Below are positions 4,984-8,211 of a stretch of DNA of 64,000 bases, piece after piece (position 1 is the stretch's first letter; each line of letters starts with the position of its first letter). Position numbers and translations under genes: made by a program. The DNA comes from Trichlorobacter ammonificans (lineage in GTDB: Bacteria > Desulfobacterota > Desulfuromonadia > Geobacterales > Pseudopelobacteraceae). Location: the NCBI RefSeq assembly GCF_933509905.1, contig NZ_OW150024.1, positions 2,344,001-2,408,000 on the forward strand, given 5' to 3'. Below the pieces are notes generated by a model, which was not told the origin of the DNA, made no database searches, and was given only the letters and a program-made list of their open reading frames with translations.

Positions 4984-6057
4984 ATGATTTCTTTTTCCAT
5001 TGTGATACCGGTTAAACCCGGGGTGGTCCCGCAGGCGGTCAAGCGGCTCTCCCCCCTTGCCCAGTCCCGCGAGGCCCTGGAACTGCTGGTGGCCGAGGGG
5101 ACCTGCCCCAGCCGCCAGCGCAACGAGGCGGTGCGGCAGGCACGAGGCGAGATCGTCTACTTCCTGGATGACGACTCCCTGGTGCCCCCCGACTGCTTGC
5201 AACGGCTGGCCGGTCATTTTGCCGACCCCGCCGTGGCGGCGGTGGGGGGGCCCTCCCTGACTCCGACCGACGACTCCCTGCTGCAGCGGGCCATAGGCGC
5301 GGCGCTGGCCTCACCCCTCGGCGCCGGGGGCGTCTGCAACCGCTACCGCAGCACCGGCACGGTCCGGCGCACCACGGAACGGGAACTGATCCTCTGCAAC
5401 CTGGCGGTACGGCGCGAGGTTTTTCTGGCCTGCGGCGGCTTCGACGAGCGGCTGTACCCCAACGAGGAGAACGAGTTCCTCGACCGGCTGGCGGCCACCG
5501 ACAGCCTGCTGCTGCACGACCCGCTGCTGACCGTGCAGCGCAGCCAGCGGGCAAGCCTGACCGCCTTTTTGTACCAGATGTTCCGCTACGGCCGGGGCCG
5601 GGCCCAGCAGACCCGCATTGCCGGCGTCACGGGAATCATGCCCTTCGCCCCGCTGCTGCTGCTGCTCTACCTGCTGTCGCTGCCCCTGCTGTCGCTGCCC
5701 CTGCTGTCGCTGCCCCTGCTGTCGCTGCCCCTGCTGTCGCTGCCCCTGCTGTCGCTGCCCCTGCTGTCGCTGCCCCTGGTGTCGCTGCCCCTGGTGTCGC
5801 TGCCCCTGGTGTCGCTGCCGTTGTGGCGTATTCCGTTGCTGCTCTACGCCGGCATACTGCTGGCAGCACCGCTCTTTGCCGATCGCAATACCCACGGGAG
5901 ACCGGCGCTCCTGGCGCTGCCGCTGCTGATCCCCCTGCTGCATCTCGCCAACGGCGCGGGGCTTTTGGCCGGGTTTCTGCTCCCCATGCCAAAACGGCCA
6001 TGCTATAAGGAGGGAGCGGTGACCATTCGCCGCATCCCCTGTACCGGAGCCCCCTGA
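4984..6057 (+). CDS. Family 2 glycosyltransferase with a C-terminal membrane segment containing an LLSLP tandem repeat
   Basis: The protein starts FSIVIPVKPG, a GT2 nucleotide-sugar fold. An acidic cluster YFLDDDSLVPP (near residue 60) fits the DXD metal site, and NEENEFLDRL (about residue 160) fits the ED acceptor region. The C-terminal third is hydrophobic and contains ten copies of a 5-residue unit (residues 230-279: seven LLSLP, then three LVSLP) encoded by a 15-bp DNA repeat. A final helix follows. It probably adds a sugar to a lipid-linked or membrane-bound glycan. Substrate cannot be predicted. It opens the polysaccharide operon and overlaps the next gene by one base (TGATG). Confidence 0.85.
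   Translation: MISFSIVIPVKPGVVPQAVKRLSPLAQSREALELLVAEGTCPSRQRNEAVRQARGEIVYFLDDDSLVPPDCLQRLAGHFADPAVAAVGGPSLTPTDDSLLQRAIGAALASPLGAGGVCNRYRSTGTVRRTTERELILCNLAVRREVFLACGGFDERLYPNEENEFLDRLAATDSLLLHDPLLTVQRSQRASLTAFLYQMFRYGRGRAQQTRIAGVTGIMPFAPLLLLLYLLSLPLLSLPLLSLPLLSLPLLSLPLLSLPLLSLPLVSLPLVSLPLVSLPLWRIPLLLYAGILLAAPLFADRNTHGRPALLALPLLIPLLHLANGAGLLAGFLLPMPKRPCYKEGAVTIRRIPCTGAP
5671..5820 (+). repeat. In-frame 15-bp tandem repeat, ten copies, inside the GT2 gene
   Basis: The unit CTGCTGTCGCTGCCC is repeated without change seven times (5671-5775). Three variants with CTGGTG (5776-5820) follow, the last ending CCG. The unit length is a multiple of three, so copy changes keep the frame and only lengthen or shorten a hydrophobic, proline-punctuated membrane stretch. 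Identity of the seven copies at all wobble positions points to recent slippage expansion. Confidence 0.95.
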
Positions 6058-7013
6058 TGGATCTGAGCATCGTCATACCGATCTACTACGAAGAAGAGAA
6101 CATCCGCCCCCTCTACCGCGCCGTGACCGAAACCCTGGACCCCACCGGCCTGAGCTACGAAATCATCGCCGTGGATGACGGCTCCGGCGACGGTTCCTTC
6201 GGCATTCTGAAGGAGCTGGCCCTGCAGGACTCCCGGCTGCGGGTGATCCGCTTCCGCCGCAACTTCGGCCAGACCGCCGCCATGTCGGCGGGGTTCGAGG
6301 CGGCCCGCGGTGCGGTTATCGTGCCGATGGACGGCGACCTGCAGAACGATCCCGCCGATATCCCGCTGTTGCTGGCAAAGATCCGGGAAGGCTACGACGT
6401 GGTCTCCGGCTGGCGCCGGGACCGCCAGGACGCCTTTGTCAGCCGCACTCTCCCCTCCCGCATCGCCAACGGCCTGATCTCCCGCATGACCGGCGTGCAC
6501 CTGCACGACTACGGCTGCACCCTCAAGGCCTACCGCCGGGAGGTGCTGGAGGGGATCGGTCTGTACGGCGAAATGCACCGGTTCGTGCCGGCCCTGGCCT
6601 CGCGGGTGGGAGCACGGGTGACGGAGCTGCCGGTGCGCCACCACCCCCGGCGCTTCGGGCAGAGCAAGTACGGCATTTCCCGCACCATGCGGGTGATCCT
6701 GGATCTGATCACGGTCCGCTTCCTGCTCTCCTACGCCACCAAGCCGATCCAGCTCTTCGGCAAGTGGGGGATCTACTGTTTTCTCATGGCCTGCGGCAGC
6801 GGCGGCGCCACCCTGTACATGAAAATTTTCGGCGGCCACAGCATGAACCGCAACCCGCTGCTGATCCTCACCGCGTTCCTGCTGTTCATGGGGGTGCAGT
6901 TCATCGCGCTGGGACTGCTGGGAGAGCTGAACGCCCGCACCTGGTACGAATCTCAGGGGAAGCCGGTCTACGCGGTGCGCGAACGGCTGAACGAACCGGA
7001 TGACCAAGCCTGA
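6057..7013 (+). CDS. Polyprenyl-phosphate glycosyltransferase, GT2 family (DPM1/ArnC/GtrB type)
   Basis: This 318-residue protein has the GT2 N-terminal fold LSIVIPIYYEEENI, the nucleotide-binding VDDGSGDGS (about residue 39) and the metal motif DGDLQNDP (about residue 91). The acceptor region YGCTLKAYRREV and the GQSKYG segment are typical of polyprenyl-phosphate sugar transferases. Two C-terminal transmembrane helices follow (about residues 233-290). Such enzymes charge undecaprenyl phosphate with a sugar for later transfer in the periplasm. It overlaps its neighbours on both sides, so it is translationally coupled inside the polysaccharide operon. The sugar is unknown. Confidence 0.9.
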   Translation: MDLSIVIPIYYEEENIRPLYRAVTETLDPTGLSYEIIAVDDGSGDGSFGILKELALQDSRLRVIRFRRNFGQTAAMSAGFEAARGAVIVPMDGDLQNDPADIPLLLAKIREGYDVVSGWRRDRQDAFVSRTLPSRIANGLISRMTGVHLHDYGCTLKAYRREVLEGIGLYGEMHRFVPALASRVGARVTELPVRHHPRRFGQSKYGISRTMRVILDLITVRFLLSYATKPIQLFGKWGIYCFLMACGSGGATLYMKIFGGHSMNRNPLLILTAFLLFMGVQFIALGLLGELNARTWYESQGKPVYAVRERLNEPDDQA

Positions 7014-8211
7014 CCGGCCGCTGCACATCCTGATGCTGGCCCCCACCCCCTACTTTTCCGACCGGGGGTGCCATGTCAGGATATACGAGGAGGCCCGGGC
7101 CCTGCTGGCCCTGGGGCACCAAGTGCGGATCGTCGCCTACCACCTGGGCCGAGACCTGCCACCGGTGCCGGTGGACCGCACCCTCGCCGTCCCCTGGTAC
7201 CGCAAACAGGGGGCCGGCCCCTCCTGGCACAAGCCGTACCTTGACTTGCTGCTGCTGCTGACGGCGCTGCGGGTGGCCCGCGACTTCCGCCCGCACCTGA
7301 TCCATGCCCACCTCCATGAAGGGGTGCTGGCGGGCTGGCTCCCGGCCAAGCTCCTGCGGCTCCCGCTGCTCTTCGACTACCAGGGGAGCCTCACCGGCGA
7401 ATCCCTCAACCACGGCTTTTTCCGGCCCGGTTCCCTGCTGCACCGCTGCTTCGGCGCCCTGGAACGGCTCATCACCCGGCTGCCCGACCACACCATCACC
7501 AGTTCCACCCCCGGCCTCCATGAACTGCGCCAACAGTGGGGCGTTGCCGCGGAACGGGTGACGCCGCTGCCCGACGGGGTGGATACGGACGTATTCCGCC
7601 CCTTCCCCAGGGATGAGGCCCGCAGCCGTCTGACCGCACTGCTGGGATCACCGCCCCTGCCGCCGGAGCCGCTCATTGTCTACCTGGGGCTCCTGAACAG
7701 CTACCAGGGGATCGACCTGTTGCTGGAAGCGGCCCTGCTGCTAAAGCAGCGGTCCATTCCGTTTCAGCTGGTACTGATGGGGTTCCCGGACGAAGCGTAC
7801 CGCCTCAGGGTTGAAGAACTGGGACTCGATTCGCAGGTCCGTCTCACCGGCCGGATCGACTACGCCGAGGCAGCGCTGCTCCTTTCCGCCGGTGACCTGG
7901 CGGTCTCCCCCAAGCTTTCCGTCACCGAGGCCAACGGCAAGCTGCTCAACTACATGGCCTGCGGCCTGGCCACGGTCTGCTTCGACACTCAGGTCAACCG
8001 TGAGCTGCTGGGGGAGGACGGCTGCTATGCCGCAACCATCTCGGCCGCGGCCCTGGCGGACCGCCTGGCAGCGGCCCTGGCCGATCCGGCGGCGTTGCGG
8101 GAAACCGGCCAACGGCTGCGGCAGCGGGCCATCGAGCAGCACGCCTGGAGCCGGCGGGGGCAACAGCTGGCTGCCTGCTACCAAAAACTGCTCACCGCTG
8201 TATTTCCATGA
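7000..8211 (+). CDS. Glycosyltransferase family 4 protein
   Basis: This 403-residue GT-B protein has an N-terminal Rossmann half with HVRIYEEARALLALGHQVRIV and HAHLHEGVLAG. The C-terminal half has LPDGVDTDVFRPF, the YLGLLNSYQGIDLLLEA start, and the nucleotide-sugar binding stretch LAVSPKLSVTEANGKLLNYMACGLATVCFD. The usual E-x7-E is represented by E..NGK, a variant seen in some GT4 proteins. It probably adds one sugar of the repeat unit at the cytoplasmic face. It starts 14 bases inside the preceding gene, so the genes are co-translated. Confidence 0.9.
   Translation: MTKPDRPLHILMLAPTPYFSDRGCHVRIYEEARALLALGHQVRIVAYHLGRDLPPVPVDRTLAVPWYRKQGAGPSWHKPYLDLLLLLTALRVARDFRPHLIHAHLHEGVLAGWLPAKLLRLPLLFDYQGSLTGESLNHGFFRPGSLLHRCFGALERLITRLPDHTITSSTPGLHELRQQWGVAAERVTPLPDGVDTDVFRPFPRDEARSRLTALLGSPPLPPEPLIVYLGLLNSYQGIDLLLEAALLLKQRSIPFQLVLMGFPDEAYRLRVEELGLDSQVRLTGRIDYAEAALLLSAGDLAVSPKLSVTEANGKLLNYMACGLATVCFDTQVNRELLGEDGCYAATISAAALADRLAAALADPAALRETGQRLRQRAIEQHAWSRRGQQLAACYQKLLTAVFP

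Follow-up and report, generated by a model that had tools for sequence, protein, structure and literature searches.

A predicted membrane glycosyltransferase gene of Trichlorobacter ammonificans, within the 64,000-nucleotide stretch of DNA analysed here (the window), contains ten tandem copies of a 15 bp unit, and this raises the questions of where the array came from and what it means for the enzyme. The first-pass annotation described it as ten in-frame 15 bp copies at 5671-5820 encoding (LLSLP)7(LVSLP)3, and the coordinates, unit, count and translation are all right. The units are arranged head-to-tail in the frame of the ORF at 4984-6057. Copies 1-7 are mutually identical (CTGCTGTCGCTGCCC, encoding LLSLP), copies 8-9 are CTGGTGTCGCTGCCC and copy 10, which ends in CCG, is CTGGTGTCGCTGCCG, these last two sequences both encoding LVSLP. 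TRF scores the array at 279 with 99% matches and 0% indels, its borders (5670-5819) being shifted one base earlier. With units of at least 10 bp, a period divisible by three and a location inside an open gene, the array is an in-frame intragenic minisatellite. Antisense and other-frame ORFs across the array were rejected as genes, as they are open because the unit has no stops in those frames. The gene and its repeat are organized as follows.

4984-6057, + strand: GT2 glycosyltransferase gene with the array, 357 aa (ORF; PF00535 1.7e-10, PF13632 1.5e-8).
5671-5820, + strand: ten-copy in-frame array, (LLSLP)7(LVSLP)3 (TRF and translation).
5671-5775, + strand: seven identical copies, the first probably corresponding to ancestral pentad 1 (alignment with relatives).
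5776-5820, + strand: three LVSLP copies, the last (5806-5820) probably corresponding to ancestral pentad 2 (relatives show, for example, LVSTP at that place).
5821-5835, + strand: third, diverged pentad LWRIP, outside the array, ending in Pro284, which is invariant in the alignment (alignment).

Chance and codon bias are ruled out as sources of the array. Among 500 codon-shuffled copies of the gene the top TRF score was 73 (28/500 reached 50) as against 279 for the real array, and the probability that six further LLSLP copies took identical codons independently is ~1e-11. The serine codon is TCG in all ten copies, and TCG has a local share of 8.1% (16 of 198 Ser codons in 11 local coding stretches); ten TCG codons in step, where this codon is locally rare, argue that the units are identical by descent. 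Together with absence from relatives, this marks the array as a product of unit duplication and not of convergent codons. It is extremely unlikely that the array was collapsed, inflated or spuriously created in assembly: the sequence is known from a single assembly, which leaves room for such an error, but the genome is one contig and 99.99% complete, 150 bp fits ordinary read lengths, the frame and flanks are intact, and the interior variants (the GTG copies and the final CCG) anchor the array, although the count of ten units may not be exact.

The array-bearing protein is a member of the GT2 glycosyltransferases. Its PF00535 match (41.5 bits against a Pfam cut-off of 23.3) covers the later stretch of the profile (66-127 of 168), and it scores far below the cut-offs of the NCBIfam equivalogs MftF (91.3 vs 280 bits) and EpsD (62.9 vs 370). 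Relatives at E 2.3e-69 or better are present in 51 of the 57 genomes searched, its own included, the other six having a weak match or none, and 13 of the 14 other genomes of the genus encode strong relatives. Two genes that recur in the relatives follow it.

6057-7013, + strand: second GT2, ArnC/PgfS-like, below the NCBIfam cut-offs (profile searches).
7000-8211, + strand: GT4 (profile searches).

Beyond the GT4 gene come a regulator-like gene and a GDP-fucose-synthase-like epimerase, which at 480.3 bits falls short of its 500-bit cut-off, and after these a flippase, a methyltransferase and two further GT4s. Of the 36 longer loci of relatives (L033-L068), 31 have a ccsA relative upstream, 35 have the second GT2 downstream and 32 have the GT4, with the one GT2 miss and three of the GT4 misses being loci that end there; five loci show no ccsA in the stretch of up to 6 kb ahead of the gene, and L067 is arranged differently. 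The array-bearing gene is a conserved gene heading a glycan cluster, and it is kept together with its neighbours across much of the order. Upstream of the GT4 gene that adjoins the enzyme's relative in the UBA6151 locus L035, and directly preceding it, there are degenerate 7-bp repeats (7902-8024; CAGGGGC x 4.4 with 91% matches, ACCCTGG x 10.7 with 70% matches) through which the GT4 frame is open. These are more likely intergenic; if GT4 translation began upstream, the 7-bp unit could shift the frame.

An alignment of the array-bearing protein with 75 relatives (76 rows) bears on the origin of the array, which falls between Tyr229 (conserved in at least 90%) and Pro284. The spacing of these two residues is 15-17 in 66 of the 75 relatives as against 55 in the window protein, and 55 is exactly 15 + 8 x 5. 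All 59 rows from L004-L032 (genomes of the window's genus, family or order) and L039-L068 (records labelled Geobacter, Geobacteraceae, Desulfuromonadales, Desulfuromonadaceae, Deltaproteobacteria and one Proteobacteria) have the 15-17 residue spacing; the nine relatives with 19-46 residues are all L069 or above, none is labelled as of the window's order, and they suggest that the site tolerates length. With eight units removed the window protein would read Y-LLSLP-LVSLP-LWRIP, a sequence similar to that of relatives, for example Y-LVTLP-LVSTP-FWRLP in L004. Among the 26 relatives with a spacing of 15, proline is at position 5 in 22, position 10 in 13, position 8 in three and position 15 (the invariant Pro) in all 26, a placement which indicates that a five-residue pattern is often present in this enzyme. 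On this evidence, slippage that began from two neighbouring pentads, LLSLP and LVSLP, is the most likely origin of the array. The earlier suggestion of a recent expansion by unit duplication is borne out by the identical wobble bases (including the rarely used Ser codon), the absence of the array from the relatives examined, and the gain of exactly eight times five residues at a single site.

A general 15-base predisposition across the order of the hairpin in which the array lies is not supported, as its 15-base self-similarity has an ordinary mean rank of 0.413 in 61 relatives. In the genus this self-similarity is within the top 4% of the gene in four of 13 rows (L004, L005, L007 and L008; rank 0.034 or lower), and it ranks from 0.069 to 0.957 in the other nine. 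Two-copy TRF rows of low score, 19 in the 109 ORFs, turn up in other relatives and elsewhere in the gene as well; with self-similarity ordinary and these rows scattered, it is the spacing and the proline pattern that carry the argument for a seed. One such row concerns L005, from a genome of the same genus (G004), where the second and third pentads of the same hairpin, LWREP-LWRLP, form a 15-bp x 2.1 repeat (1089-1119) with 13 of 15 bases alike, a level matched by no other stretch compared in its gene. This may be a separate small unit duplication at the same place with the length kept; low-score rows of this kind also occur elsewhere, as counted above.

Among the genomes compared, sequence searches indicate that the array is private to that of the window. 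At a TRF score of at least 40, none of 109 relative ORFs (at least six of them duplicates) contains three or more 15-bp units in tandem, and BLASTN of the array finds a single place in its own genome, the next match having an E value of 0.018. At E 0.001 or better, five of 76 family genomes have a BLASTN match, these being the own locus and four unlike repeats; the weak matches in G088, G064, G066 and G030 (4/75 other family genomes) were rejected as copies of the array since TRF identifies them as other repeats. Searched as protein against 141 genomes of the order, the array matches its own locus and one other place (1/140 other genomes), which is a different array (15-bp x 8.3), interrupted by five stop codons in the matching frame, and was likewise rejected. 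A 301-base array query gave no match to plasmids. Other 15-bp minisatellites are present in the family, with L141, L145 (G088) and L146 (G061) containing ACACCGGTCGAAGAG x 18, ACACCGGTCGAAGCG x 16.2 and CCTTTGGTTTAGCTG x 8.3.

In the window and a 400-kb sample of its genome (20 pieces of 20 kb, including 5,000 N bases), no other array among the best 25 of 29 TRF rows combines a period below 60 with a copy number above five, and in those same rows longer-period arrays and a CRISPR-like array outscore it. The G+C content of the sample is 61.2% of called bases, and that of T. ammonificans is 61.3% (PMC10811743). The CRISPR-like array (G000:C1 968299-969983, or L127 18299-19983) has repeats of ~37 bases with a period of ~72 and extends nearly to the end of L127. 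Two further tandem repeats in the genome, of 264 bp x 2.3-2.5 (L121 1156-2588) and 90 bp x 5.5 (L122 17348-17846), have periods divisible by three and perhaps represent large repetitive proteins.

Where the additional residues lie in the enzyme is suggested by AlphaFold2 models. The relative L007 (pLDDT 94.5) is predicted to have a GT domain, a helix at 192-213 and then helices at 219-235, 239-263 and 268-292, with the helices 219-235 and 239-263 linked by three residues. The window protein (pLDDT 88.9) has the same order of elements, as compared through element lists and not by superposition, with helices flanking the insert.

5638-5694, + strand: predicted helix 1, residues 219-237, its end including ~1.5 array units (AlphaFold2 model).
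5818-5877, + strand: predicted helix 2, residues 279-298 (AlphaFold2 model).
5917-5979, + strand: predicted helix 3, residues 312-332 (AlphaFold2 model).

Within the insert the ten-residue blocks covering 241-280 have pLDDT values of 52-64 and are almost without regular structure (there is one four-residue helix, 244-247), low confidence in a stretch with no alignment counterpart being no proof of disorder. In the model the array thus adds 40 residues to what is otherwise a short turn joining helix 1 to helix 2, at the end away from the catalytic domain, and the insert is most likely on the periplasmic side. The first-pass annotation had placed the array in a membrane segment of a glycosyltransferase, and this can be refined on two points: the enzyme is of GT2 type, and the array lies mainly in a loop between two predicted helices. 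Its point that a change of length keeps the frame while altering a hydrophobic stretch of a membrane glycosyltransferase is well founded in structural terms. Rough hydrophobicity sums for the window protein, in which an insertion scale was combined with an ad hoc position weight, put the interior of the insert close to the level of its native helices 2 and 3 but make it worse than helix 1, a result that does not discriminate between an insert within the membrane and one outside it. The best Foldseek matches of the L007 model are GT2 enzymes, cellulose synthases and hyaluronan synthases among them, as would suit a protein with its GT domain in the cytoplasm and membrane helices after it. Cellulose synthase BcsA and hyaluronan synthase rank high (best E 1.8e-9 and 4.0e-8), but L007 is much smaller, with three C-terminal helices and 9-16% identity among the matches listed.

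Forty extra hydrophobic residues could damage the enzyme, with the gene in the process of being lost, and we regard this as distinctly unlikely. Consistent with damage, residues 281-340 (the helix 2-3 part) of the window protein show the lowest identity among the 14 genus members, 0.462 as against 0.481-0.618; but the reading frame is open at full length, all 29 columns that are invariant in the 76-row alignment are (by definition) intact, and the catalytic domain (residues 1-215) has a normal mean identity to the 13 genus relatives of 0.700, the range for the others being 0.679-0.746.

The reading we prefer, with a probability of roughly 0.75, is that the array is a young, lineage-specific and tolerated in-frame minisatellite, multiplied from two ancestral units, in an enzyme that most likely still works. 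The ancestral enzyme, a conserved GT2, would have had a hairpin close to Tyr-[LLSLP]-[LVSLP]-[LWRIP] between membrane helices 1 and 2, in which two adjacent 15-bp units became near-identical. Slipped-strand replication or unequal recombination would then have multiplied these to seven and three copies, and 40 hydrophobic residues would have been gained in steps that keep the frame. Because length appears not to be strongly constrained at this end of the helix pair, which lies away from the catalytic domain and is most likely periplasmic, the insert was probably tolerated and activity probably retained. The low conservation of the helix 2-3 part counts against this reading and could reflect altered function, and it is not self-evident that a loop can take up forty very hydrophobic residues without harm.

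As to how the DNA repeat grew, the perfect units and their absence in relatives suggest slippage or unequal recombination. Hairpin-driven slippage is not supported, as single-strand folding of the array is not unusually stable (z 0.29 for the + strand and 4.32 for the - strand, the latter weaker than all 200 shuffles). The minus strand contains nine GGGG tracts spaced 15 bp apart with 11-base loops; the array is the sole place in the window with four GGGG tracts and loops of up to 12 bases, and there is none in the 400-kb sample.

These G-tracts bear on the adaptive explanation suggested in the first-pass annotation, with enzyme tuning and surface-glycan variation as a form of phase or antigenic variation, in which gain and loss of 15-bp units would alter the hydrophobic insert, and through it the activity or placement of the enzyme, giving reversible glycan variation. 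G-rich CEB1 minisatellite alleles are reported to be unstable in yeast lacking Pif1 helicase (PMC2673046), and the same explanation draws on the in-frame units and perfect copies and on the setting in a glycan-synthesis cluster (GT2s, GT4s, a GDP-fucose-synthase-like epimerase, a flippase and a methyltransferase). A Legionella pneumophila study (PMC2639597) bears on it from both sides: polymorphic arrays had higher internal identity, but seven of 26 intragenic arrays were polymorphic whereas 19 were monomorphic, and none of the 26 changed during three months of passage. Since the gene is also conserved with recurring neighbours, the insert is outside the catalytic domain in the AlphaFold2 model and the array strands do not fold with unusual stability, we consider such tuning, and any surface-glycan, phase or antigenic variation through it, unsupported by the present analysis and unlikely. 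A more elaborate version, in which the array would act as a structural rheostat of an inner-membrane glycosyltransferase, is very unlikely; here about four units (20 residues) could form one membrane span, copy number would decide between a loop, a hairpin dipping into the membrane and an additional pair of helices, and the array would be kept unstable by G-tracts in the template strand, yielding graded, frame-neutral glycan variation with no off state. The tolerated minisatellite we favour is itself a fair VNTR candidate by analogy with the polymorphic Legionella arrays and their higher internal identity.

Phase-variable glycan genes with simple repeats typically act by frameshift, as on/off switches. 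The array-bearing gene is not a contingency gene of this frameshift type, as the 15-bp unit is in frame and a change in copy number cannot switch the gene off by frameshift, and the array looks like an ordinary, probably tolerated repeat expansion. It shares a tandem repeat within a glycan-synthesis gene with genes such as those of the Neisseria phasome (PMC5953494), but differs from phase-variable genes of that type in having units that cannot shift the frame. Spontaneous duplications reportedly cause phase variation in the pneumococcal capsule genes cap8E, tts and the type 3 locus (Waite et al. 2001, 2003, cited in PMC8406281), likewise by duplicated sequence inside a polysaccharide-synthesis gene; theirs are reportedly phase-variable, whereas the array here consists of many short units and is known from one genome. 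It resembles the Legionella in-frame arrays in its intragenic location, a unit divisible by three and high internal identity, but it lies in a predicted membrane enzyme and is known from one genome, whereas in the Legionella report 0/23 repeat genes were predicted to be inner membrane as against 18.2% of the proteome (PMC2639597). Within M. tuberculosis cultures, promoter repeats vary in copy number at a rate of 1e-2 to 1e-3 per chromosome (PMC12817950). Among titles and abstract starts of the open-access literature we found no in-frame array in a membrane glycosyltransferase, and the sole match joining Geobacter, tandem repeat and phase variation concerns Akkermansia.

As an event the array belongs to an ordinary class, and it is the place that is unusual. 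It offers a clean case of a minisatellite born within a membrane protein, in which the relatives still show the shorter stretch and the pentad pattern, the step size is exact and the conserved core of the enzyme is untouched. If the copy number proves variable, the array would provide a strain-typing marker and a natural series for testing how the loop between two helices affects a polysaccharide enzyme.
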